From Candidatus Poribacteria bacterium (GTDB taxonomy: Bacteria > Poribacteria > WGA-4E > PCPOR2b), in NCBI GenBank assembly GCA_021295755.1, contig JAGWBT010000039.1:1-37014 (forward strand): DNA of 37,014 nucleotides. The letters run 5' to 3'. A model generated the notes under the pieces. The model was not told the DNA's origin, did not search any database, and worked only from the letters and a program-made list of their open reading frames with translations. The position numbers and the translations under genes were made by a program. Within the stretch, counting starts at the first letter, position 1; the number at the start of each line of letters is the position of its first letter. Shown here piece by piece: positions 5,508 to 24,909 of this stretch.

Positions 5508-6560
5508 ATGGAAACATTAAAAGTTGGAATTATTGGGTTGGGTGGAATCGCCCGCTCCCACTGTGATGCGATTGCGACATTGGATAACGTAGAGGTTATA
5601 GCGGTTGCTGACCTCTTTGAGGAAAAGCGTCGCGAATACATGGAGAAATATAATATTCCAAAGGGGTATGAGACTCACACGGAGCTATTGCAGGACGACG
5701 AAGTTGACGCTGTGGCAGTGGTGCTTGGCCATCAACTCCATCATCAGCTCACTGTGGATTCCTGCAATGCTGGTAAGCACGTCTTGGTGGAGAAACCAAT
5801 GGCGATTAGCCTGCAGCAATGTGACGGTATGATAGCGGCGGCGGCTACTAACAATGTCAAGTTGATGGTGGGATATAGCCAGCACTATTACGGCACAAGT
5901 GTAAAGGCGAAGGAGATCCTCGATTCAGGTGATTTAGGACCACTCATAACAGCGGTGTGTTACATGTCCAAGAATTGGGGTTATCAGGGACGTCGACCTC
6001 AATACCGGAGCCGGTACCACGGTGGTGGTATGTGGTTGACCAATGGTGTTCATGTGGTAGACCGTCTTACATGGGTGATGGCGTCTCAAGCCGCGTCGGT
6101 ATCGGCGTCTATCGGTGCACGTGCACATTACCAAGCGGGTGATGATTCCGCCACGGCTTTCATACGATACAAAAACGGACTTGCCGGAGTTGCCGTAGCG
6201 GTTGGATTTGCTGATGGTGCCCCCGACTTTAGCTGTCAGGTGATCTGCGCCAACGGTACATTGCGGTTCAGCCAGCACGGTGAAAAATATGTCAGGGTTG
6301 GAAAAGGAGATAAGTGGGAAGATGTGCCATTCGATGATCCACCGGTTGAAATGCACAACGAGTGGAAGTCGTTTGCTGAAGCGATTGAGAAAAATATTGA
6401 GCCACCGACACATGGGGAATGGGGACGGCATATTATGGAAATCCTGTTTGCTGCCGAGCAGTCGGCGATCACCGGTCGAGAGGTCGTGTTAGATAGTGGC
6501 CTTGGTTGGACGAACCAGACATCTGGCTCTCCTATCACGATTGATCACGGCTGGGTCTAA
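5508..6560 (+). CDS. Gfo/Idh/MocA family oxidoreductase
   Basis: This is a 350-residue NAD(P)-dependent sugar or inositol dehydrogenase-like protein. The N-terminal Rossmann motif is VGIIGLGGIARSHCDAI. The cofactor and substrate-linking motif VLVEKPMAISLQQCD (EKP) lies near residue 94. The C-terminal alpha/beta domain includes GGGMWLTNGVHVVDRLTWV, where the NGVHVVD segment supplies the usual catalytic His. A strong ribosome site (TAGGAGG) lies 6 nt before the ATG. It opens the plus-strand catabolic run and is followed after 75 bp by the BNR protein. Family members oxidise or epimerise sugars and cyclitols; the specific substrate is unknown. Confidence 0.93.
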   Translation: METLKVGIIGLGGIARSHCDAIATLDNVEVIAVADLFEEKRREYMEKYNIPKGYETHTELLQDDEVDAVAVVLGHQLHHQLTVDSCNAGKHVLVEKPMAISLQQCDGMIAAAATNNVKLMVGYSQHYYGTSVKAKEILDSGDLGPLITAVCYMSKNWGYQGRRPQYRSRYHGGGMWLTNGVHVVDRLTWVMASQAASVSASIGARAHYQAGDDSATAFIRYKNGLAGVAVAVGFADGAPDFSCQVICANGTLRFSQHGEKYVRVGKGDKWEDVPFDDPPVEMHNEWKSFAEAIEKNIEPPTHGEWGRHIMEILFAAEQSAITGREVVLDSGLGWTNQTSGSPITIDHGWV

Positions 6561-6635
6561 GGGCATCGTGAAAGCAGTGTCCACATAAGCAAATAGAAGC
6601 GTTTGAATGGCGGACAGAAGAAGTGGAGGTAAGAA

Positions 6636-7910
6636 ATGTCCAATTCGATTCTGCGGGAAACATGGGCACAAAGCAATGTGGGTGAAAATCTCGTTCTGCT
6701 GTCACAAAACGGTTGTGGTCGTGCCACGGCATACGGCGATTGCAACAAAATAATCACGGTTCAGGACAAAACGCATGTGTCATGGCTCGATTCAATTGCC
6801 GAAGGATTTCGTGTGCGTGTGCGGACGTTCGATCGCAAAACGAAGGAATGGTCTTCCACATATACTGTCGGTGAGGCATACGATAATCATGGCGGACCTG
6901 CATTGACGGTAGACAGTTTAGGATACCTTCACATCGTTTATTACCCACATCACCATCCCTTCCGCTATCGTCGATCGGTGCGTCCAAATGATGCGTCTGA
7001 GTGGGGCAACGAAATTGAGTTCGGCGAGAGATGCACTTATCCCACGATGGTCTGTGGTTTGGATGATACCCTTTATTTAACAGGCAGAGAAAATCGAGGA
7101 TCCGAACCGTGGTATGTAAACCTTTACATCAAACCCCCGGAGGCGCCTTGGCAGGAGCCCATCGCCATTTTCCAAGATGATAAGGGTGGGTATGTTCGTT
7201 ATCAGGGAGCGTTGGCGTGGGGTCAAAACCATCGGACGTTGCATATGACTCTCTTGATTTTTGATGAAAGGCGGTCATACACTGTCGGATATCTTCGTAG
7301 TTCTGACAGTGGGAACACGTGGGAGCGAGCCGATGGCACACCGGTTCCACTGCCCGCTACCCGCGAAACTGTTACACTCATTGACACCGAACATCGAGAT
7401 TTGCGGTTTGGTTCTATCGCTGTGGATAGAGAGAGTGCGCCGTATATCCTCTACAGCACCTGCCCTTCCTTTGCTATACCGTCCCGAGCGTGGGTCGCGT
7501 GGCTAGATGGAACAGGTAAGTGGTGCCGCCGTTCACTCACCGACGAACTTCCGAAGGAGTGGCAGTCTTGGAGTCTTGCCATGGATGGTGCCATCCACAT
7601 CGCTCCTGACGGCCGAATTTTTATCGTATTGGCGTTGATGAAGCCGGAAACCGTGAGCGAGGGAAACTGGGCACATAAAAGTGCCGAGATTGTTGAATTA
7701 CAAGCCCCGGATATCTGTGGTAAATTTAGCGTCGAGCTACTCTCCAAACCCGATATGACAATTCCCCACTGGCTTCCAACCCTAGAACGTCCCACAGGGC
7801 ACAACCAAGTTGACGTGCCCGGCGTGATGTATACGGTGGGTGTCGCAGGTGAAGGATGCGATGATATTCTTTCCAACGCTGTTTATTGGACGGAAATGCA
7901 ACCACGGTGA
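6636..7910 (+). CDS. BNR-repeat (sialidase-fold) protein, possible glycan hydrolase or lyase
   Basis: This 424-residue protein looks like a beta-propeller of the BNR_4 type. It has a recognisable Asp box SSDSGNTWE near residue 224 and repeated blade motifs such as GGPALTVDSLGYLHIVYYPHHHP and GAIHIAPDGRIFIVLALM. Related propellers include sialidase-fold glycosidases and ulvan-lyase-type polysaccharide lyases, so it may cleave a glycan. The His-rich YYPHHHP turn is a candidate catalytic or metal site, by inference. No signal peptide is visible at the N-terminus, so a cytoplasmic role on oligosaccharides is plausible. A GTGGAGG ribosome site precedes the ATG. The neighbouring MFS transporter and Gfo/Idh enzyme support a sugar-catabolism role. 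Confidence 0.72.
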   Translation: MSNSILRETWAQSNVGENLVLLSQNGCGRATAYGDCNKIITVQDKTHVSWLDSIAEGFRVRVRTFDRKTKEWSSTYTVGEAYDNHGGPALTVDSLGYLHIVYYPHHHPFRYRRSVRPNDASEWGNEIEFGERCTYPTMVCGLDDTLYLTGRENRGSEPWYVNLYIKPPEAPWQEPIAIFQDDKGGYVRYQGALAWGQNHRTLHMTLLIFDERRSYTVGYLRSSDSGNTWERADGTPVPLPATRETVTLIDTEHRDLRFGSIAVDRESAPYILYSTCPSFAIPSRAWVAWLDGTGKWCRRSLTDELPKEWQSWSLAMDGAIHIAPDGRIFIVLALMKPETVSEGNWAHKSAEIVELQAPDICGKFSVELLSKPDMTIPHWLPTLERPTGHNQVDVPGVMYTVGVAGEGCDDILSNAVYWTEMQPR

Positions 7911-8036
7911 TGGTCTGTTTCTTTACATTTTTTTTCTAAGATCCCGCATTGAATAGAGCGGATTAGACGAAGCAGTAGCGATTATGGGCATTTCCTAATT
8001 GATTAAATCAAGGAAGGTGATAGTAGGCAATCTACA

Positions 8037-9233
8037 GTGCGCAACAGCGGTCAAAAAAGTATCTATCGGATATTAACCCCCATTCTGTTTCTTGCTGGAA
8101 TTCTCTTTTTCACGTTTCTTTCACGTGTTGTCTTTTCACCGCTGTTGGTGCTAATTGAGGAAGAACTGCACCTGTCCCATGCGAAATCAGGAAGTCTATT
8201 TCTCCTCATCTCTATCGGGTTTGCGCCTGTGATGTTGGGTTCAGGCTTCGTCTCCCAACGGCTTACACATCGCGGGACAATCCTGCTTTCCTCTATAACG
8301 TGTGGGGTGGCCGTTCTGATAATTGCTTTCAGTCCCTCGCTGATCGGCATTCAAGTTGGCATGGTAGTGCTTGGCATGGGTTCGGGTCTCTATTTTCCGT
8401 CGGCGATGTCGACGATGACCCGTTTGGTAGATCCGGAACATTGGGGAAAAGCGATTTCGCTGCATGAGGCAGGACCCACCATGGGATATGTCCTTGCACC
8501 TATCGTTGCCGAATTGGGTTTAAATTTTACATCGTGGCGTGGTGTTCTGATAATCGTCGGTGTTGGTGGCTTAGTGATGGCTGCGACATTCGCGCTATTT
8601 GGGCAGGGCGGCAGATTTGCCGGCGAACCACCACGATTGGATAACGTGGGACAAATCTTTTGCCAACCCTCATTTTGGATTATCGCTATTCTGATGAGTT
8701 TGGCTTGCGGGGCGAGTGTAGGCGTATACGCAATTCTGCCGGTCTATCTTATCAGCGAACAGGGACTAGACCAAGGGTTTGTGAATACCCTCGTTGGACT
8801 CTCGCGGATATCTGGGCTTGTGGCTGTTTTCCTCGCTGGCTGGTTGGCGGATCGCTTTGGTGCAAAACGGGTCATGGGGGGAATTTATACCGCAACTGCT
8901 CTTCTGACAGGCCTGATGGGCTTCAGTCAAAAGATTATCCTAGTGACGGTGGTATTTCTTCAACCGGCGGTTGTTGCTGCGTTTTTCCCCGTTGCGTTGT
9001 TGGGGCTTACAAATGTAGGACCTCCCCGCACTAGAAATGTTGCTGTCTCGTTGATGATACCCTTTGTTTACCTGTTTGGTGCTGGGGTCGTCCCCGCGGG
9101 GATGGGAGTGATGGGGGAATACTACGGATTTGCGCTTGGTTTCCTTCTGATGGGAGGGCTGCTGCTAGCTAGCGTATGTCTCCTGCTGTTTATGCGCGAC
9201 CGACCGGAACCTGTGCCTGATCTTGAGGGATAG
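8037..9233 (+). CDS. MFS transporter
   Basis: This is a 398-residue integral membrane protein with about twelve hydrophobic segments, a pattern typical of the major facilitator superfamily. The first helix (ILTPILFLAGILFFTFLSRVVF) follows a short basic cytoplasmic tail. The loop between helices 2 and 3 has the sequence SQRLTHRG, a degenerate form of the MFS motif A. The equivalent loop in the second half, AGWLADRFGAKRV, is an excellent motif A match. Translation appears to start at a GTG (8037), because no in-frame ATG lies upstream. An AGGAAGG stretch lies rather far, 19 nt before it. It probably imports or exports a sugar acid or oligosaccharide handled by the surrounding enzymes; substrate unknown. 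Confidence 0.92.
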   Translation: MRNSGQKSIYRILTPILFLAGILFFTFLSRVVFSPLLVLIEEELHLSHAKSGSLFLLISIGFAPVMLGSGFVSQRLTHRGTILLSSITCGVAVLIIAFSPSLIGIQVGMVVLGMGSGLYFPSAMSTMTRLVDPEHWGKAISLHEAGPTMGYVLAPIVAELGLNFTSWRGVLIIVGVGGLVMAATFALFGQGGRFAGEPPRLDNVGQIFCQPSFWIIAILMSLACGASVGVYAILPVYLISEQGLDQGFVNTLVGLSRISGLVAVFLAGWLADRFGAKRVMGGIYTATALLTGLMGFSQKIILVTVVFLQPAVVAAFFPVALLGLTNVGPPRTRNVAVSLMIPFVYLFGAGVVPAGMGVMGEYYGFALGFLLMGGLLLASVCLLLFMRDRPEPVPDLEG

Positions 9234-9358
9234 AGGGAATGCTGTTAGTGTTATAGTTAGATATGAGCGTACGATATTTTTTACATAGAGTGAATATTGT
9301 GAAGGGGTACTGGTATGGGTAGACGGAGAAAACCAATACCGAAATGAGGTTAAAAACG

Positions 9359-10486
9359 ATGAAAATTCGGAATATTCAAGCCTTTCCGCTCGCCTACCCT
9401 GAACCACATTACAAAGGTATCGAGCGGTATATTACCCTCGCCCGTGTGGAGACGGAAGATGGGGTGGTCGGCTGGGGAGAATGTATTTCACAGTTTCGGG
9501 AAGCGGCACTAGCAACGAAGGTCATTATTGAACAGGGGCTTGCGCCGTTGCTCGTAGGTGAGGATGCGATAGATGTTGACCGGCTCTGGCATATAATGCA
9601 GTCCCGTATCTGGTGGTATGGACCGGAAGGGATTGCTGCCTTTGGCGTGAGTGCCTTGGACATGGCGCTCTGGGATGTGAAAGGGAAAGCGCTAGGCCTG
9701 CCTGTTTGCCGGCTGTTAGGGGGACAGTTGCACGACAAGGTCGTTGCTATGGCGTCCTTTATCTTTGACATGGAGGATTTCGACTGGACGCTCAATGAGT
9801 TTCGTTTCCTCCGAGAGGAAGGATATCAGGTTGTCAAAGCTGGTTGGGGTATGCGACCCGAAGCACTCTTCGGCCAAGACCGGCAGCGCGACCTCGAAAT
9901 TGTGCGGCGGGTACGGGAAGTTATTGGCGATGACTTGGAACTCATTGTTGATACACCTGGGCATCACCGGCTCTGGGACGTTCCGACAGCGATTCAGCGT
10001 TTTCGGGAGTTGGAGCCGTATCGACTCCGATGGATCGAGCAGCCACTCCCGTCTCATGATCTTGAAGGACACGCCCGACTGCGGGCGGCGGTTTCCACTC
10101 CGATCGGCACGGGTGAGGACGAATGGAACGTCGAGAGTTACCGGCGCCTGATTCAGTCAGGAGGCATTGATGTGGTGCAGATAGATCCTGGTCGTTGTCA
10201 CGGTATCACGGGCTCGTTCCATGTCATCAAACTTGTTGAGGCGGAAAGCCTGGAGTTCAGTTTTCACACGTGGAGCAGCGCCCTCAACACCGCTGCTAGT
10301 CTACACCTGCTGGCCGGCTCGACGCACGGTGTAGCAATGGACTTCAAGCCGCATGAGTCGCCGATGCAGCACGAGTTGGTCAGCGATCCGTGGGTTCAAG
10401 AGGATGGTTATCTCGCCGTGCGGGAAACCCCCGGCTTGGGGGTTCAGGTGCGCGAAGATACGGTGCAGAAGTATTTATTTAGTTGA
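9359..10486 (+). CDS. Mandelate racemase/muconate lactonizing enzyme family protein (enolase superfamily)
   Basis: This enzyme of about 375 residues is probably a sugar-acid dehydratase or epimerase that abstracts a proton alpha to a carboxylate with Mg2+. The N-terminal capping domain begins MKIRNIQAFPLAYPEPHYKG. The barrel domain starts with FGVSALDMALWDVKGKALG. Candidate catalytic and metal residues are the Lys in YQVVKAGWGM, metal ligands Asp (LIVDTPGHH), Glu (WIEQPLPSHD) and Glu/Asp (GTGEDEW), and the His in FSFHTWSSA. I prefer the ATG at 9359 because GAGGT lies 8 nt before it; an in-frame ATG at 9344 sits on top of that ribosome site. The gene ends 12 bp before the ROK kinase. Confidence 0.9.
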   Translation: MKIRNIQAFPLAYPEPHYKGIERYITLARVETEDGVVGWGECISQFREAALATKVIIEQGLAPLLVGEDAIDVDRLWHIMQSRIWWYGPEGIAAFGVSALDMALWDVKGKALGLPVCRLLGGQLHDKVVAMASFIFDMEDFDWTLNEFRFLREEGYQVVKAGWGMRPEALFGQDRQRDLEIVRRVREVIGDDLELIVDTPGHHRLWDVPTAIQRFRELEPYRLRWIEQPLPSHDLEGHARLRAAVSTPIGTGEDEWNVESYRRLIQSGGIDVVQIDPGRCHGITGSFHVIKLVEAESLEFSFHTWSSALNTAASLHLLAGSTHGVAMDFKPHESPMQHELVSDPWVQEDGYLAVRETPGLGVQVREDTVQKYLFS

Positions 10487-10498
10487 GAGCGTTTGCAG

Positions 10499-11458
10499 AT
10501 GAGTTCACACGTCATCGGTATCGACATCGGTGGAACAAAACTTGCCACTGTTGTCGCTGATAAAAACGGAAATATCCTTCGGAAGGTGCGGCAGCCGACC
10601 GAGTCAGAGAAGGGACCGCGTCATGCGGTGCAGCTGCTCTTGGAGATGGTCGATGAGGTGATCGACTTGGCGGAATTGCGGCGCGGGGACATCTCAGGGA
10701 TTGGTGTGAGCTGCGGCGGTCCCCTCGACACGAAAACCGGCATTATCTATTCTCCACCCAATCTTCCGGGGTGGGATGCGCTGCCGTTGAGGGAGATGAT
10801 CGAGTCAAAGTTTCATATTCCGACGATTATTGAGAATGATGCGAATGCGAGCGCACTCGCCGAGGCGAGATTTGGGGGCGGACGTGGCTACGATTATGTT
10901 CTTTACATGACGATGAGTACAGGCATCGGCGGTGGCATTGTTGCCAATGGAGAGATCTACCACGGTGCAAATGACAGCGCAGGGGAGGTTGGCCATCAGA
11001 TCTTGCTTCCTGAGGGCCCCCTCTGTGGTTGTGGCAAATATGGGTGTCTGGAAGCCTTATGCTCAGGACCTTCGATTGCACGTCGTGCACAGGAGGCGAT
11101 TGCGGATCAACCGCACACCAAAATCTTGGCACTTGCAAGCGGGGAGATGAATAGCGTGAAATCGGAGCATGTGCTCCAAGCTGCACGGGACGGCGATGCC
11201 CTAGCAATGGCTTTAGTGGAAGAAACCGCGTACTACATGGGTTGGGGAATTGCGAATCTTGTTAATATCTTGAACCCCCAGATCGTGCTGCTCGGAACGA
11301 TTGCAGTTGCTGCCGGGGACTTGCTGCTAGACCCAATCCGACGCACCGTAACGGAAATGGCGATGCAACGTCCTTTAGAAGCTGTTAAAATTATGCCGGC
11401 GGAACTGGGTGATTCCATCGGTGACCTTGCTGCAATTTCGTTGGTGATTGGGGATTAG
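10499..11458 (+). CDS. ROK family sugar kinase
   Basis: This is a 319-residue cytoplasmic kinase of the ROK family, which phosphorylates hexoses such as glucose, N-acetylmannosamine or fructose with ATP. The phosphate-binding motif is IGIDIGGTKLA at the N-terminus. The catalytic Asp is in IIENDANASALAEARFG. The ROK zinc site is complete: GHQILLPEG followed by CGCGKYGCLEALCSG, giving the usual one His and three Cys ligands. It has no N-terminal helix-turn-helix, so it is a kinase rather than a NagC/XylR-type repressor. The start is the ATG at 10499; a TTG six bases upstream is less likely. It follows the enolase-superfamily gene by 12 bp and precedes the SIS isomerase, consistent with one operon. 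Confidence 0.93.
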   Translation: MSSHVIGIDIGGTKLATVVADKNGNILRKVRQPTESEKGPRHAVQLLLEMVDEVIDLAELRRGDISGIGVSCGGPLDTKTGIIYSPPNLPGWDALPLREMIESKFHIPTIIENDANASALAEARFGGGRGYDYVLYMTMSTGIGGGIVANGEIYHGANDSAGEVGHQILLPEGPLCGCGKYGCLEALCSGPSIARRAQEAIADQPHTKILALASGEMNSVKSEHVLQAARDGDALAMALVEETAYYMGWGIANLVNILNPQIVLLGTIAVAAGDLLLDPIRRTVTEMAMQRPLEAVKIMPAELGDSIGDLAAISLVIGD

Positions 11459-11543
11459 GTCTGAAGGAATGAACCCAACCGTCGCTGACAGAAACTAATC
11501 TAGTAGGACGGCACACCAGCCCATTAAAATTTGGAGATAATTC

Positions 11544-12104
11544 ATGGAACGCATTCAAGGATATATTTCGCATTTACAGGGCGTCTTGGAACGTCTCTCC
11601 TTAGCTGATGTTCGTCAGTCGATTGATCTTGTGATGGAGACATATCAGGCAGATCGACAAATTTTTGTCATCGGGAACGGCGGTAGTGCGTCTACTGCCT
11701 CACACATTGCGAATGACTTGAACAAAGGGGCGAGCGTGCCCGGAGTGCGTCGCTTTCGGGTGATTAGCTTAACCGATAATGTGGCGACGATGACGGCTTG
11801 GTCAAACGATATATCTTACGATGATGTGTTTGTCGAGCAACTTAGAAACTTGGTCAACCCCGGCGATTTGCTGATTGCAATCAGCGCGAGCGGTAACTCT
11901 GAAAACATCATTCGGGCGATTCGTCATGCCAAGGCTATTGGGTGCAAAACTATTGGTTGGACAGGGTTCGGTGGTGGAAAGCTACGGGAGATGGCAGATG
12001 TCAGTGTTGTGGCAGACAGCTATGACTACGGTCCGGTTGAAGATGTACATCTCATTCTCAACCACATCCTCCACTCTTGGATTCGGAAAGAACTTACGGA
12101 TTAA
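11544..12104 (+). CDS. SIS domain sugar-phosphate isomerase (GmhA-like)
   Basis: This 186-residue protein is a single SIS domain similar to phosphoheptose isomerase GmhA. The phosphate-binding segment is FVIGNGGSASTASHIANDLNKG near residues 37-60. A second SIS signature is DLLIAISASGNSENIIRAI near 111-130. The C-terminal EDVHLILNHILHSWI contributes the His/Glu pair usual in this group. Members aldose-ketose isomerise phosphosugars or bind them as regulators. It follows a ROK kinase whose product could be its substrate. A TTGGAG ribosome site lies about 9 nt before the ATG. True heptose synthesis is less likely than a catabolic isomerase, because no other heptose genes are present. Confidence 0.85.
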   Translation: MERIQGYISHLQGVLERLSLADVRQSIDLVMETYQADRQIFVIGNGGSASTASHIANDLNKGASVPGVRRFRVISLTDNVATMTAWSNDISYDDVFVEQLRNLVNPGDLLIAISASGNSENIIRAIRHAKAIGCKTIGWTGFGGGKLREMADVSVVADSYDYGPVEDVHLILNHILHSWIRKELTD

Positions 12105-12148
12105 GAATTGAGGTCGTATTAAGCAAAAAAACAGAAAGGAGAAGGTAC

Positions 12149-13048
12149 ATGCAATATAGGAGACTTGGACGCACGGAGCTAGAGGTTTCGGAACTCGGTT
12201 TCGGCGCATGGCACATCGGCTGGACACCTCCGGAAGAGGGAGATGAAGTCGGACAGCTCCTCAACCGCGCGCTCGACGCTGGCGTTAATTTTATCGATTC
12301 TTCGGCATCATATCGTTGGAGTGAAGAACTGGTTGCCAAATATATTGGCCATCGCCAAGACGAATTTTATTTCGCCACTAAGTGTGGTTCGTGGCGGGTA
12401 CAGCAACCGGATGGCGAATGGGTACAAACTTTGGACTACTCCGCCAAAGCTATTGAGCCGCAGATTGACCGGAGCTTACAACGACTGAAGACAGATTGCA
12501 TTGACATTATGCAACTACACAGCCCCAAATATGAAGATGTAGCCTGCGGCGACAGCCTAGAGGGGCTCAAGAAGGCACAGGCAGCCGGCAAGGTGCGCTT
12601 TATCAGTTTATCAGCGGACGGTGATACTGCACGTAAGGCTATTGAGATTGGGGAATATGACACGCTGCAGCTCACCTATAACGTGCTGCGTCAGGAACCC
12701 GCGGAAGTCATTGCTGCTGCACGCGAAAAGGATATGGGTATCATCATCAAGGGGCCCATTGCGAATGCCATGTACGAACAATCGCACCCTAACGAAAATA
12801 ACGCAAAGACGTGGTACAACGCCCGGAAGATTCTTGCTCCGGAGGTAATAGGCAATATGTCCCGTGTAGAGGCTTCGCTGCGGTGGCTGCTGTGCGACCC
12901 GGACGTTCACACCGCGATTGTTGGAACAACCAATATTAACCACTTCGAAGACAATCTCGCCGGTACAGAACGTGGTCGGTTGCCGGATGAGATGTTGTCG
13001 GAAATCAGCTGTCGATATAAGGCGTTGATGACAGGAGACACGGAGTAG
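12149..13048 (+). CDS. Aldo/keto reductase
   Basis: This 299-residue cytoplasmic NADPH-dependent reductase has a complete AKR barrel. The N-terminal RLGRTELEVSELGFGAWHIG is the usual opening. The active-site region FIDSSASYRWSEELVAKYIG has the catalytic Asp and Tyr, FATKCGS the Lys, and IMQLHSP the His. The coenzyme-binding end TAIVGTTNINHFEDNL is also present. I place the start at 12149 because AGAAAGGAGAAGG lies directly upstream; a longer frame from 12077 would overlap the SIS gene and add a tail unlike the family. The long insert after the Lys (SWRVQQPDGEWVQTLDYS) is seen in AKRs that act on sugar or lactone substrates. It probably interconverts an aldehyde or keto sugar in the same pathway. 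Confidence 0.92.
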   Translation: MQYRRLGRTELEVSELGFGAWHIGWTPPEEGDEVGQLLNRALDAGVNFIDSSASYRWSEELVAKYIGHRQDEFYFATKCGSWRVQQPDGEWVQTLDYSAKAIEPQIDRSLQRLKTDCIDIMQLHSPKYEDVACGDSLEGLKKAQAAGKVRFISLSADGDTARKAIEIGEYDTLQLTYNVLRQEPAEVIAAAREKDMGIIIKGPIANAMYEQSHPNENNAKTWYNARKILAPEVIGNMSRVEASLRWLLCDPDVHTAIVGTTNINHFEDNLAGTERGRLPDEMLSEISCRYKALMTGDTE

Positions 13049-13094
13049 AGGTTGCTGAAATTAGCGATTGTGGACAAGAAACCTTGGAGGAGAT

Positions 13095-13946
13095 ATGCTA
13101 CGATATGTGTTCGCCGTGATGGTCCTTATATTTACGGCATCAATCTCGAAAGGCGTGGAGGTTGGAGATAGTGTTTTGCGGACGCCCATTACGTTCGGCG
13201 AGGCAGAGATCAAGTTCGCCGATTTTCATGGAAAATCTAACCTTATCGTTATAGGCGATATGGCGGAGCATTCAGAAGTGATCGCCCAATTGGAGCGGAG
13301 AGCAGCAAAGTATGATGCGACGCTTCTTCGTTTACAGGGGCTAGGCGAAATCCTAGTTATTGACAAGTCGGGGTATGTGCGTTGGAAGTTTCCTCACGCG
13401 TCCGACTCGGCACAGCCCACGATTGAAGAACTCGAATCTGAGCTAACAAAACTCAAACGCGACGAGCCACTGCCGATTGGTTCACCGGCGCCGGAGTTCA
13501 GACTCGTGGATGTGGAGAGTGGACTCCTTTTCAGTCTTTCCAAATACAAAGGGAAGAAGCACGTATTAGCGACGTTGCTGCTGCAAACCTACTGACCACA
13601 TTGTGCGAGGTTCACGTCGCAGGTTGCGGCGAATCACCAGTTATTTGATGAGGAGTATGAGACCGTTGTTATCGCTATTAAGCCCGAACCGAAGCCTGTT
13701 GTTTTTAGCTTCAAGGATCGGGTAATATCGACTCTCCCACTTCTAGCCGATCCGGGTTCCTCCGTTCACGAGGCATACGGAATTGTGAAGCCGTACCGTT
13801 TCCACAACCGAGATATGTATCTGCCGGCCACATTCCTCATTGATAAACAGGGTATCCTGAGATGGATGTACATCGGCGAAAATAACTCTGACCGTCCCAG
13901 TTTGGACTCGATTGTTGAACAACTTGAGCAATTGAACGCTGAATGA
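13095..13946 (+). CDS. Candidate selenoprotein: secreted two-domain redoxin with UxxC active site (in-frame TGA read as Sec)
   Basis: Read conventionally the gene stops at TGA 13593-13595. The same frame continues without interruption for 117 codons to TGA 13944-13946 and completes a thioredoxin/AhpC-TSA-type redoxin. The TGA falls exactly on the first position of the redox motif: LLLQTY-U-PHCARFTSQV, giving UPHC in place of CPHC. With Sec the protein is 283 residues, with Sec167. Residues 1-20 look like a signal peptide (basic start, then FAVMVLIF), so a periplasmic or exported location is likely. Residues 21-120 form a degenerate redoxin-like domain without cysteines. Residues 127-283 are the active domain, with GSPAPEFRLVDV at its start and the cis-proline in YLPATFLIDKQG (Pro244). 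GGAGG lies 4 nt before the ATG; an upstream TTG at 13068 is unlikely. A SECIS-like hairpin follows the TGA. The alternative, a nonsense pseudogene, is less likely because the stop sits at the catalytic position. Confidence 0.82.
13609..13635 (+). promoter_or_regulatory. Candidate bacterial SECIS element
   Basis: Twenty-five nt separate the in-frame TGA (13593-13595) from the apical loop, within the 16-37 nt range known for bacterial SECIS elements. The upper stem CGTCGC (13615-13620) pairs with GCGGCG (13626-13631, one T-G wobble) around the loop AGGTT (13621-13625), which has G in its first two positions. Below a two-base CA bulge, GGTT (13609-13612) pairs with AATC (13632-13635). The core GCAGGUUGC closely resembles the GCAGGUCUGC core of the E. 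coli fdhF SECIS. The structure was folded by eye. Confidence 0.75.
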
Positions 13947-13962
13947 ATTGTAGGAGCATACT

Positions 13963-15210
13963 ATGACTTCAAAAGACTTTATTGTTAAAGACGTTGAGCG
14001 GATTGTACTAAACGTACCTTTCCATCCGCGTTGTGCCCATGTAAAAGAGGTTCGGGTCTCCGACTGGTCGATCGTGGAGTTGTGCAGGGTGACCACAGCT
14101 TCGGGTGTGGTTGGTATTGGAGAGACACTTCCGCATTATACATGGGGACGATCGGGAGACGAACAGTTTAATCGGGTGCGTGATCGAAACCTCTTTGATT
14201 TTCTGATGGACGACAGTCTCGGTGCTGGGCTACAAATGGCACTGTTCGATGCCGCCGGCAAATTACTGGATGTGCCGTGCCATCGGTTGATGGGATCGCA
14301 GTATCGTGAAACCTGTCCTGTGTCTTGGTGGGCGCAAGATATGAAACCCGAAGAGTGGGCAGCGGAGGCAAAAACAGCGGAGGCGCACGGCTTTACAAAT
14401 ATCAAGGTGAAAGCGCGTCCTTGGTTTGACATCGACCAACAACTGGCAGCGGTCTGTGAAGCAGTACCACCCCACTTTAAGTTGGACGCAGACTTCAACG
14501 GTCTGTTGCTAGGCGTAGATTTGGCGGCGCCGTTAATCAGCCGTTTGGAACGGAAATACAGCAATTTGGCGATTGTGGAATCCCCTATTCCCCAGGAGGA
14601 TGTGGCAGGAAATGCGCTGCTCCGACAGAAAATACATACCCCGATTGCCATGCACATGGGTAATCCACCCGTGATGACCGCGATTCAGGAGGGCGTGTGC
14701 GACGGGTTTGTCATCGGCGGGGGTGTCAATCGCACCCTGAAGGAGGGCATTCTGGCGGAGCAGGCTCAGATGCCGTTCTGGTTGCAGATGGTGGGTACAG
14801 GGTTGACTACTATGTTCTCTGTCCATTTGGGCGCGGTATTGGAGAGTGCTCGTTGGCCCGCCATTCCGTGTATCAACATTTTTTCGCACACCTTGCTCAA
14901 GGAATTTAAGGTAGAAGGTGGGCATGTTAAAGTTCCAGAAGCACCGGGGTTGGGTGTCGAACTGGACTCGGATGCGATCGAGCGATTCCGCGTTGAATCG
15001 GATTTCAAGAAGCCGGTTGCACGTCAGATCCATACCATTCTGTGGCCCGATGGCCGGCAAACGCACTATCCAGATGGTGGTTACCGAACGGTCTTTCTAG
15101 CGGGTAAACTGCCGCCGTTCCTACCGGGCGTTTCCTTAGAGCGACGTTTGGATGATGGTTCGGGGGCGTTCGATCGGGAGTATAAGGAACTATTCCCCGA
15201 AGCGAATTGA
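13963..15210 (+). CDS. Enolase superfamily enzyme (mandelate racemase-like), second paralogue
   Basis: This 415-residue protein is a second, divergent enolase-superfamily member in the locus. The barrel starts with LGAGLQMALFDAAGKLLDVPCHRLMG. The KxK proton-shuttle motif is in FTNIKVKARPW. Metal ligands appear as Asp in FKLDADFNG and Glu in AIVESPIPQED; the third is not obvious, because the following strand reads TPIAMHMGNPP. It has a C-terminal extension of about 80 residues beyond the usual barrel, ending YKELFPEAN. A TAGGAG ribosome site lies just before the ATG, and only 16 bp separate it from the selenoprotein candidate, so the two are probably co-transcribed. The reaction is probably dehydration or epimerisation of a sugar acid; the unusual third ligand makes this uncertain. 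Confidence 0.82.
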   Translation: MTSKDFIVKDVERIVLNVPFHPRCAHVKEVRVSDWSIVELCRVTTASGVVGIGETLPHYTWGRSGDEQFNRVRDRNLFDFLMDDSLGAGLQMALFDAAGKLLDVPCHRLMGSQYRETCPVSWWAQDMKPEEWAAEAKTAEAHGFTNIKVKARPWFDIDQQLAAVCEAVPPHFKLDADFNGLLLGVDLAAPLISRLERKYSNLAIVESPIPQEDVAGNALLRQKIHTPIAMHMGNPPVMTAIQEGVCDGFVIGGGVNRTLKEGILAEQAQMPFWLQMVGTGLTTMFSVHLGAVLESARWPAIPCINIFSHTLLKEFKVEGGHVKVPEAPGLGVELDSDAIERFRVESDFKKPVARQIHTILWPDGRQTHYPDGGYRTVFLAGKLPPFLPGVSLERRLDDGSGAFDREYKELFPEAN

Positions 15211-15250
15211 TAGCACTTAACTCACCGTCCTCAGCCAAAGGAGCAGCACG

Positions 15251-16438
15251 ATGAACTTTTCAAGTGCGACAGTTTCCGCCTTTACCATTCCGCCGACCGT
15301 GATCACGGGGATTGGGGCAGCGGAGCAGGTCGGCGAGCAAGCGAAACGACTGGGCGGAGAGACAGCGTTGGTTGTGACAGATCCGGGCATTAATAAACTC
15401 GGTTACGCCGATGGGATTGTAAAACAGCTGAACGCCGTTGGGATTAGCGCATCCATCTTTGAGGACGTGACACCTGATCCAACGCTGCAAAATGTTGACG
15501 ACGGCTTGGACCAGTATCGGGGCGAGGGCTGCAATCTGATTGTCAGTATCGGCGGTGGTAGCGCGATCGACTGCGGCAAGGGGATTGCCGTAAAACTAAC
15601 CAACGATGAACCACTCGCCGAATATATGGGCGTGAACAAGATTCCGAATCCGGGCGTGCCACTTATCGCTATCCCGACGACAGCAGGAACAGGCAGCGAG
15701 TGTACTAAAGTCACGGTGCTCACTGAAACTGAACAAAACGTGAAAATGATGCTCAGCAGCCCGTGCTTGTTAGCGCAGGTTGCGATTGTCGATCCGTTAT
15801 TGTCATTGACAACGCCGCCGCATCTGACTGCGGCGGTCGGGATAGATGCCTTGACACATGCTATTGAGGCGTACATCTCCAAACGCGCTCAACCGATTAC
15901 TGATGCGCTGGCGCTGAAGGCGGTTCGTCTGATATCCGGTTCGATGCGACAAGCGTGGGCACACGGCGAGAATATTGAGGCGCGGACGGATATGATGATT
16001 GGTGCTTCAATCGCTGGTATGGCGTTTAGCAATTCGTCCGTCGCATTGGTCCACGGGATGTCCCGCCCGATTGGGGCGTATTTCCATATTCATCACGGTT
16101 TATCAAACTCCGTCCTGCTGCTAGATGTCATGGAGTTCAGCGTCGTTGGAACACCTGCTCGCTTCGCCGACATCGCTCGCGCAATGGGTGAACCGACAGA
16201 GGGATTGTCGCTAATGGGGCAGGCAGATCGAGCGATTGCAGCGGTAGAGCGGTTGATTGATGATATCCAGATGCCGCGATTGGGAGAGATTGGCATTGAT
16301 CTGGACAAATTTGAGGCGGTCGTTGATCAGATGGCGTCGGACGCGATTGCGAGCGGTAGTCCGGCGAATAACCCACGCCAACCAACACACGAAGAAATTG
16401 TCGCGTTGTATCGGAGATGCTTCGCAGAACGGAAGTAG
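15251..16438 (+). CDS. Iron-containing alcohol dehydrogenase
   Basis: This 395-residue cytoplasmic protein is a group III (Fe-dependent) alcohol dehydrogenase using NAD(P). The N-terminal Rossmann-like part includes ALVVTDPGINKLG and the pyrophosphate-binding VSIGGGSAIDCGKGIA. The PTTAGTGSECTKVTVLT motif follows near residue 139. The metal site is complete: Asp and His in AVGIDALTHAIEAYIS, then His residues in ALVHGMSRPIGAYFHIHHGLSN. AAAGGAGCAGC before the ATG is a good ribosome site. Members reduce or oxidise short-chain alcohols, lactaldehyde or maleylacetate. As the last gene of the plus-strand run it could reduce an aldehyde produced upstream. It ends 6 bp from the convergent PhyH gene with no obvious terminator between them. 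Confidence 0.94.
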   Translation: MNFSSATVSAFTIPPTVITGIGAAEQVGEQAKRLGGETALVVTDPGINKLGYADGIVKQLNAVGISASIFEDVTPDPTLQNVDDGLDQYRGEGCNLIVSIGGGSAIDCGKGIAVKLTNDEPLAEYMGVNKIPNPGVPLIAIPTTAGTGSECTKVTVLTETEQNVKMMLSSPCLLAQVAIVDPLLSLTTPPHLTAAVGIDALTHAIEAYISKRAQPITDALALKAVRLISGSMRQAWAHGENIEARTDMMIGASIAGMAFSNSSVALVHGMSRPIGAYFHIHHGLSNSVLLLDVMEFSVVGTPARFADIARAMGEPTEGLSLMGQADRAIAAVERLIDDIQMPRLGEIGIDLDKFEAVVDQMASDAIASGSPANNPRQPTHEEIVALYRRCFAERK

Positions 16439-23149: not shown

Positions 23150-24061
23150 TTAATCTGTGAAAGTCTGATATTCTGCTATTTTTTGGAGAAGCATTAGCTG
23201 TTCAGGTCGCTCGATTGGGTCTTCATGCAAGTGTTTAGGAGTAAAGTTTGTTACCAACGCCTCAAGCATAGGTTTTCTATTAGCTTCCTTTGCACCGACG
23301 TGATAAAAGTGTTCCTTAGTAAGGATGTTAAACTCTGACCACAACGTACCGAGGAAAGTATTTTCTCGGTGCTGGTTACTATGCCACGTCGACAAAATAA
23401 AGTTGCAAGGACACTGACTCAGAATTGTAAACAGTTGTCGTTCGTTCTCCTCGTTCCAACTATCGAAATAATCAACGTGCCTTCCAACGTAAGGCGGATC
23501 GCAATATACAAAATCCCCCTTAGAAATTCTGCTCAGTGTTTCCCGAAAGTCTTGGCATACAAATGACCAGTTGAAATTCCGTGAAATGGCGTGAACGAAG
23601 TCAACCTGATTCACAATCTTGGTAACATATGCTTTGGAAAAGCGCTGGGGCTTGTGGCCAAAGGGCACATTGAAGCCTCCCTTACTGTTAAACCTAATCA
23701 CACCATTGAAACAGGATCGGTTAAGAAAAAGAAAATCCAAAGGATCGTGATACCTATTGAATCGGACTCGTACTTCATAATAGTAGTCTTTACCATATTG
23801 AGACAGAATTTTGCCTTCACGTTCAAGAAAACTTCTAACTTTCAAGCCGTTAAGTTTCCCGCTAGCAATTGCCGCATAGAAGTTAATTAAGTGCGGATTG
23901 CTATCCGCGAACAGCGCATTGCGCGGCATTATGTTGAAACCGACAACCCCCGATCCCATAAAAGGTTCGATCCATGTCCCATCAAAAGACCAGTCCACGG
24001 TTCGCTTAATCAAAGGTATCAGCTTGCTCTTTATCCCCTGACACTTAATCGGTGGAACCAT
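23150..24061 (-). CDS. Type II DNA adenine methyltransferase, M.EcoRV-like
   Basis: This 303-residue protein is an N6-adenine methyltransferase of the Dam/D12 (alpha) group. The SAM-binding motif is [15 protein letters not shown] near residue 30 and the catalytic motif IV is [15 protein letters not shown] near residue 190. From memory, the opening [15 protein letters not shown] and the segments [24 protein letters not shown] and [11 protein letters not shown] match M.EcoRV closely; that enzyme methylates the first adenine of GATATC. Its first 31 nt overlap the end of the partner endonuclease gene. The pair is visibly AT-richer than its surroundings, suggesting horizontal transfer. It would protect host DNA from the adjacent EcoRV-like enzyme. 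Confidence 0.93.
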
Positions 24062-24909
24062 TTGTTAATCCGGGTTTTCCTCGTTTTGGGGACAATAAGT
24101 CGAGTGTCTCCACCTCGATATATGACGAAATCTTTCAAATTCGTAATCTTCTTTGTTCTGCCGCTATCATCAGCGATTGTAATCTTACCATAATTCATCC
24201 AATAATCGTCGAACCATTTCTCACCCAAGCGTGAAAACATGCCCTGACCTGAAAGTATATCAGAAATCTTGTTAATGCTTCCAATATTTGCGGTATTCCC
24301 ACTGCCACTTTTATCGCTCGCGATTTTCCATTTCTCTGCTACGAAGAATTGGAAGTCCTTTATAACAGAAGCAATCGAATGAAGCTCCTCAAGTCCGTAG
24401 GTGTGAGTTTCATCCAATTCTCTGTCCGCATGTCTACTATAGATAATACCCAAGCAAAAATGGCCACTGTATTGACCATAAGGGAACTGAATATTCTTTG
24501 AACTGTTCCTATTTACAAAGTATTCCCCGTGGGAACCTAAGGTAAATCCGTTACAAAATTCTGGATTATCTCCTAAACGGTATGTAGTTTTGAAATCAAC
24601 TGCGAATTTTATACTCTCGTCATCGGCACGGACAAAGGAAATATCAGGATAATAATTCTGATGTTCAGCTAGAACAAGTCGGTATCCAATTTTCTGTGCA
24701 AAGTTGAGAATACGTGGAAAGAGATGTATTTCAAGAATCTTTGATATTATCTTTGTATCGGAAGAAATGGTGTAAATATTTCGGCATACATCTATAAATC
24801 CTTTGATACTCCATTGTCCATCATCTGTGCTGACGTAATCATCCAACAATGAAACGAATTGAGAGAGTTCGTGAAAAAAGTCCTGCTTGAGTTCAGACTC
24901 TCGGTTCAT
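24031..24909 (-). CDS. Type II restriction endonuclease, EcoRV-like
   Basis: This 292-residue protein is an EcoRV-family PD-(D/E)XK endonuclease, expected to cut GATATC. The catalytic core is NYYPDISF followed by [11 protein letters not shown], aligning with EcoRV Asp74, Asp90 and Lys92. The recognition loop [12 protein letters not shown] is nearly the EcoRV R-loop (SGSGNTTNIGSI), and [21 protein letters not shown] matches the NIVYPFDQYIAHW region. It is about 45 residues longer than EcoRV at its ends, including the C-terminal [14 protein letters not shown] tail. It precedes the methylase with a 31-nt overlap, so endonuclease translation leads. AAGGAA precedes the ATG. The gene appears intact. 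AT-rich composition suggests acquisition. Confidence 0.92.

Follow-up and report, generated by a model that had tools for sequence, protein, structure and literature searches.

In a 37,014-nucleotide window of a Candidatus Poribacteria genome (G000:C39:1-37014; 5.03 Mb in 257 contigs), positions 5508-16438 hold ten open reading frames, all on the plus strand (Table 1). They encode an oxidoreductase (GFO), a propeller protein (BNR), a transporter (MFS), a dehydratase-like enzyme (ENO1), a ROK kinase, a SIS isomerase, an aldo/keto reductase (AKR), a selenoprotein redoxin, a second enolase-superfamily protein (ENO2) and an iron-containing alcohol dehydrogenase (Fe-ADH). On balance, we take this run to be a genus-restricted, co-directional set of common poribacterial metabolic genes and not a conserved pathway, with BNR and the neighbouring MFS as the only plausible glycan-specific core. 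The initial annotation had named the ten families, and Pfam assignments agree with each of them at its place; it had also read the row as one catabolic locus, a view that as a conserved pathway gives way before the relatives, where the set is incomplete within the genus and dispersed outside it. The locus itself appears ordinary, and BNR is, judging from sequence and model, a member of a candidate lyase clade. With its complete predicted active site, this clade offers one concrete protein for testing.

A propeller protein with a putative uronate lyase active site

BNR belongs to the BNR_4 family (cut-off of PF15892, 27 bits). In a single-sequence search GH145-type structures come first (5MUK, E 1.6e-12) and PL25 follows at E 0.023, while a profile built from 16 homologues reaches GH145 at 1e-26, PL25 at 7e-21 and PL42 at 3e-11. 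Structure prediction, a check proposed in the initial annotation, bears out its placing of BNR among propellers of the polysaccharide-lyase kind: the AlphaFold2 model (pLDDT 81.9, pTM 0.87) matches GH145, PL42 and PL25 propellers (Z 34-39), with GH145-type chains at 35.7-39.0, FoRham1 of PL42 at 33.9-35.8 and PL25 at 34. Scores are lower for CylK (30) and for lectin propellers (up to 29.6).

The catalytic set of the PL25/PL42 lyases is present as well. In the profile alignment, positions 99, 119, 164 and 180 of the PL25 chain align with H85, H105, Y135 and R151 of BNR; because the four spacings match, we infer an offset of +24 that converts these positions to His123, His143, Tyr188 and Arg204 of the ulvan lyase PLSV_3936 (residues as given in the available excerpt of PMC8377490). 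The same excerpt equates His90 and His110 of the GH145 protein BT3686 with His85 and His105 of FoRham1 (PMC8377490), and His90 and His110 of BT3686 align with H85 and H105 of BNR. All four BNR residues are kept in 10/10 sequences of a first alignment (A1), which came from a whole-genome search free of motif selection bias and include three poribacterial proteins at 28-33% identity. They are also kept in 16/16 sequences of a second alignment (A2), chosen to cover the genus and a further Poribacterium, along with other bacterial phyla and one Micrarchaeota bin; most of its other-phylum members were retrieved by patterns containing the DNH (H85) or TYP (Y135) motif, so that the invariance of these two residues is partly by construction, while the patterns do not extend to H105 and R151. 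Sequence and model together support a BNR that folds like the uronate lyases of PL25/PL42 type and has their complete catalytic set.

It is unlikely that BNR is instead a non-enzymatic, lectin-like sugar-binding propeller or a retaining α-rhamnosidase of the GH145 type. The relatively high scores of lectin propellers and the first rank of GH145-type chains in sequence comparison would be expected from such a protein, but lectins score below GH145, PL42 and PL25, and the four lyase residues are retained throughout both alignments. The column of His48, the posterior catalytic nucleophile of GH145, moreover, holds V42 in BNR and a His in 0/16 A2 sequences.

Three characterised proteins come close to BNR. 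FoRham1, an L-rhamnose-α-1,4-D-glucuronate lyase, shares the BNR_4 propeller fold (Z 35.8), and its His85/His105 (20 residues apart) and Tyr150/Arg166 (16 residues apart) have the spacing of the BNR residues (excerpt of PMC8377490); it is, however, a fungal protein with 14% identity to BNR over the structural alignment, BNR lacks an obvious signal peptide, and the residue mapping between the two runs via BT3686 and PL25. PLSV_3936 has the four positions in common with BNR (Z 34) but is only 17% identical and is reported to act in endo fashion on ulvan (excerpt of PMC8377490), again in contrast to a BNR without visible signal peptide. The α-L-rhamnosidase BT3686 is closest by sequence (E 1.6e-12; Z 36.3) and shares the anterior-site residues, whereas its catalytic His48 is missing from BNR.

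In the mechanism that we favour, MFS would bring a small uronic-acid glycoside into the cell, and BNR would cleave it in the cytosol by β-elimination. Arg151 would neutralise the uronate carboxylate and His85 act as base and acid, assisted by His105 and Tyr135, following the residue mapping to PL25 and, via BT3686, to PL42. Activity, substrate, transport role and cytosolic location are here what we infer from the observed gene identities, conservation, dispersal, predicted fold and residue identity. The remaining genes are probably independent: ROK and SIS form a class-wide sugar kinase/isomerase pair, and Fe-ADH, ENO1, the Gfo/Idh protein and the selenoprotein redoxin have other contexts in relatives.

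Conservation inside the genus

The genus comprises six genomes, those of the window host and of G016-G020, and in the latter five the run is found in unchanged order, with some departures. It is flanked there by TopA, an ABC gene, a gluconate-2-dehydrogenase-subunit-3-like gene and a GMC oxidoreductase on one side and by PhyH genes on the other. Orthologues occur at the same place in 5/5 congeners (the AKR, for example, at 87-91% identity across five congeneric genomes), which indicates that the genes are real and not chance frames; the exceptions are ENO1, BNR and MFS, each intact in 4/5, so that seven of the ten genes are intact in all six genomes. In G018, ENO1 is reduced to residues 311-379. 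BNR and MFS are jointly absent from G020, where BNR survives as a 32-residue remnant and MFS is gone at the locus, and BNR is duplicated in tandem in G016 and G017; such module-like behaviour favours BNR-MFS as a core of its own.

As a control, the remainder of the window was compared in G016, G018, G019 and G020. Genes for a peptide deformylase, a peptidase, an aminotransferase and a PLP enzyme, with others, are largely collinear in these four genomes, with some losses (G020 is without the peptidase and retains little of the GNAT gene, and G018 is without the aminotransferase and the GNAT gene), and the order of the set is not clearly better kept in them than that of these unrelated flanking genes. 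Since the whole window is largely collinear, unrelated genes included, collinearity within the genus is weak evidence of a common function. The families involved are also very common: Gfo/Idh/MocA domain matches number 133 over the 5 Mb of the host genome, and a first look gave 92 candidates for ENO2, so that the adjacency of several such genes is weak evidence of a pathway. The methodological lesson is that, in a genome with more than 100 Gfo/Idh genes, a genus-conserved row of sugar enzymes is not by itself pathway evidence.

A single genus-specific catabolic operon, in which BNR would release L-rhamnose or another deoxysugar, GFO or AKR oxidise it, ENO1 dehydrate the resulting acid, Fe-ADH reduce lactaldehyde and ROK-SIS take a second sugar, strikes us as improbable. 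It would account for the co-directional row and its seven fully retained genes, for the acid-sugar dehydratase-like nature of ENO1 and for the 328 bits that Fe-ADH scores with a lactaldehyde reductase model (below its cut-off of 523, and with two other models scoring higher); rhamnose is, besides, released by PL42 enzymes (excerpt of PMC8377490). Against such an operon stand the roughly equal collinearity of unrelated flanking genes, the loss of ENO1 and of BNR with MFS each from a congener that otherwise keeps the rest, the scattering of orthologues elsewhere, the absence of aldolase and lactonase families from the 30 window frames that were scanned, and the curated NCBIfam cut-offs, which none of the ten proteins passes.

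Dispersal outside the genus

A genus-restricted set of independent genes agrees with what is found further away, among the 82 searched genomes of the class. ENO1 occurs at E <= 1e-90 in 30/82 genomes, 25 of them outside the genus, and each of the 15 loci fetched from these 25 (15/15) is without another gene of the set, distant enolase paralogues excepted. A protein cluster assigned to DUF6785/DUF6784 (Pfam on one member) lies near ENO1 in 12 of these 15 loci (L029-L043) and is a possible transporter partner of ENO1 outside the genus. For GFO, Fe-ADH and redoxin loci, co-location was called at more than 45% identity and E <= 1e-30. GFO has matches in 11 further genomes of the class at 81-97% identity, with a 76% fragment in one more; the gene is present in 13 genomes, seven of them outside the genus, and 6/6 fetched loci, some on short contigs, hold no other set gene. 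The same is true of 10/10 loci for Fe-ADH (64 genomes, 58 outside the genus), where a purH-type gene lies nearby in 8/10, and of 8/8 loci for the redoxin (20 genomes, 14 outside the genus), all of which have a TsaD-family gene nearby.

ROK and SIS stand apart from this scattering. Both are present in 65 genomes and lie within 3 kb of each other in 60; outside the genus this is so in 54/59 genomes, the other five having them on separate contigs. An FGGY kinase is found in the ROK-SIS neighbourhood in 9/15 fetched loci. In the class an order recurs (L045 and similar loci) that starts with the FGGY kinase and runs through ROK and SIS to membrane genes, NfeD and two of FloA type, which often follow SIS. 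On single contigs of G077, G078, G080 and G081, the distances between ENO1, the ROK-SIS pair and Fe-ADH range from 0.31 to 3.44 Mb in contig coordinates. GFO, ENO1, redoxin and Fe-ADH are thus scattered in relatives outside the genus, the outcome that the initial annotation had named as refuting its reading, while ROK-SIS stays paired. As more distant relatives mostly have the genes followed far apart, one conserved pathway is probably not what the set represents.

Two control genes help to calibrate this dispersal. The AT3 gene, a weak control, keeps no neighbour in three fetched loci outside the genus, where two contigs end at AT3 so that one locus tests the deformylase side, and TopA keeps its ABC neighbour in 7/10.

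Several points weigh against our reading of the run. Beyond the genus, gene order is in general poorly kept and the dispersal seen in other families is partly background, so that a genus-specific operon may still have been built from scattered genes. The dispersal comparison, moreover, followed four genes by context, GFO, ENO1, redoxin and Fe-ADH, and in G013 the redoxin gene is followed by that of a divergent enolase, 31% identical to ENO2. The pattern-based retrieval of A2 sequences described above belongs with these points.

BNR homologues in other phyla

Homologues of BNR were found at 31 loci, 23 of them non-poribacterial and many on short contigs. No match to ENO1, ENO2, ROK, SIS, MFS, redoxin or Fe-ADH appears at E <= 1e-5 in these 23 loci, and weak Gfo/Idh and weak AKR matches appear in two each. 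By raw count within 10-kb flanks, the commonest neighbour family is sulfatase, in 4/22 other-phylum loci, followed by DUF1501 in three (Pfam assignments were made for all four of the sulfatases and for two of the three DUF1501 proteins). The sulfatase-bearing loci belong to Armatimonadota, Bryobacterales (L078 and L088, near-identical) and Verrucomicrobiales, and give a weak hint of sulfated substrates for those other-phylum homologues. Judged by eye, some of the other-phylum homologues have Tat-like or lipoprotein-like leaders.

These sulfatases and leaders, together with the fact that PL25 enzymes are ulvan lyases, could suggest a secreted marine polysaccharide-utilisation locus. We nonetheless regard such a locus as very improbable: the window BNR has no hydrophobic N-terminal stretch (best 15-residue mean 0.44, a hydropathy score and not the output of a signal-peptide predictor), and the Pfam scan of 30 window frames, which did not extend to the remaining 6 kb of the contig, found no sulfatase, no SusC/D and no glycoside hydrolase family. 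The lyase hint of the initial annotation stands at the level of the fold and active site of BNR.

A bolder proposal, which we advance only tentatively, joins the BNR proteins of the genus with homologues from Armatimonadota, Acidobacteriota, Verrucomicrobiota, Planctomycetota and Spirochaetes in a possible undescribed lyase family with a PL25/PL42 active site. Some of its members would be exported and others intracellular, and the latter would act on uronic-acid glycosides that a transporter brings in. The genus might, in addition, have gathered formerly scattered genes around BNR into a new operon.

Kamke et al. reportedly described, in 2013, poribacterial genes for carbohydrate and uronic-acid degradation, with which the window locus has phylum and theme in common. 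The theme of carbohydrate and uronic-acid degradation in Poribacteria also appears in the available excerpt of PMC8546597. In the excerpts available from the literature on poribacterial carbohydrate degradation and on polysaccharide lyases, no description of the window locus was found.

The other enzymes of the run

The remaining enzymes have family resemblances that stay short of named functions. ENO1 falls below every listed NCBIfam cut-off (best curated dehydratase model, 172.9 bits against 311), and it resembles assorted acid-sugar dehydratases at moderate scores. The ROK protein reaches 244.4 bits with TIGR00744, whose cut-off is 260.35, and has glucokinases as its nearest solved structures; the SIS protein reaches 119 bits with the GmhA model against a cut-off of 209, with phosphoheptose isomerases nearest among solved structures. 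For AKR, no solved relative was found at E <= 1e-25. The nearest solved structure to Fe-ADH is 1,3-propanediol oxidoreductase, and the protein also resembles methanol dehydrogenases.

ENO2 is a divergent protein of the enolase superfamily. Its model (pLDDT 88.9) has enolase-superfamily structures as top matches, and relatives occur in 78/82 class genomes. Orthologues in the genus are 93-94% identical; after them come paralogues, with 54% identity inside the genus and about 51% in other genomes. Within the family (A4 alignment), KxK, D177 and E206 are invariant, and His231 is found in 11/11 sequences at the end of barrel strand 5, the usual place of the third acidic metal ligand in the enolase superfamily. 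The ENO2 family possibly has an unusual metal site or is a non-canonical enzyme; a literature search brought up no relevant report of a His metal ligand in the enolase superfamily.

The redoxin is a credible selenoprotein, as initially annotated. Its frame is split by an in-frame TGA at 13593, which, read as selenocysteine, gives an AhpC/TSA protein of 283 residues. A TGA lies inside the match in 20/20 genomes (E <= 1e-20), two of which also have a TAG, and in the six genomes of the genus it falls at one shared UPxC motif; the host encodes SelB (371.6 bits against a cut-off of 242). A hairpin about 21-35 bases 3' of the TGA is kept in 5/5 aligned congeneric sequences, with no compensatory changes, and its support comes from this conservation and not from single-sequence folding, where its z of only -0.30 is not unusual. 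The redoxin is predicted to be exported. No literature on selenoproteins in Poribacteria was found.

Host and other features of the window

The BNR gene is also present at 84-86% identity in named relatives, all of them Candidatus Poribacteria genomes, and by sequence the window host is grouped with Candidatus Poribacteria. Poribacteria count among the dominant members of the bacterial communities in marine sponges (excerpt of PMC3909097). Pfam scans covered 30 frames of the window. Better start codons than those of the mechanical frame calls were chosen for ROK (10505) and AKR (12149). Promoter and terminator scans of the run gave counts inside the spread of shuffles, and Rfam gave no match at gathering scores.

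Table 1. Coordinates of the ten genes of the run, of a further gene of the window and of sulfatase genes near BNR homologues.
Feature	Position	Strand	Family and score
GFO, Gfo/Idh/MocA oxidoreductase	5508..6560	+	PF01408, GFO_IDH_MocA 95 bits
BNR, BNR_4 seven-bladed propeller, predicted intracellular β-elimination uronate lyase, GH145/PL42/PL25 type	6636..7910	+	PF15892 76 bits
MFS transporter	8037..9233	+	PF07690, MFS_1 144 bits
ENO1, mandelate-racemase-type acid-sugar dehydratase-like enzyme	9344..10486	+	PF13378, MR_MLE_C 188 bits
ROK kinase, glucokinase-like	10505..11458	+	PF00480 238 bits
SIS isomerase, phosphoheptose-isomerase-like	11544..12104	+	PF13580, SIS_2 78 bits
AKR, aldo/keto reductase	12149..13048	+	PF00248, Aldo_ket_red 143 bits
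Selenoprotein AhpC/TSA redoxin, hydrophobic N-terminus, TGA 13593-13595 as Sec167 (UPHC motif)	13095..13946	+	AhpC-TSA 66 bits
ENO2, divergent enolase-superfamily protein, His231	13963..15210	+	PF13378, MR_MLE_C 91 bits
Fe-ADH, iron-containing alcohol dehydrogenase	15251..16438	+	PF00465 181 bits, PF25137 183 bits
EcoRV-type restriction endonuclease beside D12 adenine methylase	23153-24909	-	PF09233 398 bits
Sulfatase gene near BNR homologue	L077:2045-3790
Sulfatase gene near BNR homologue	L078:4428-5855
Sulfatase gene near BNR homologue	L080:15599-17953
Sulfatase gene near BNR homologue	L088:4262-5689

Four PhyH genes lie in the window. The D12 methylase gene is kept at its place, without that of the endonuclease, in G018, G019 and G020, and G016 is without both.

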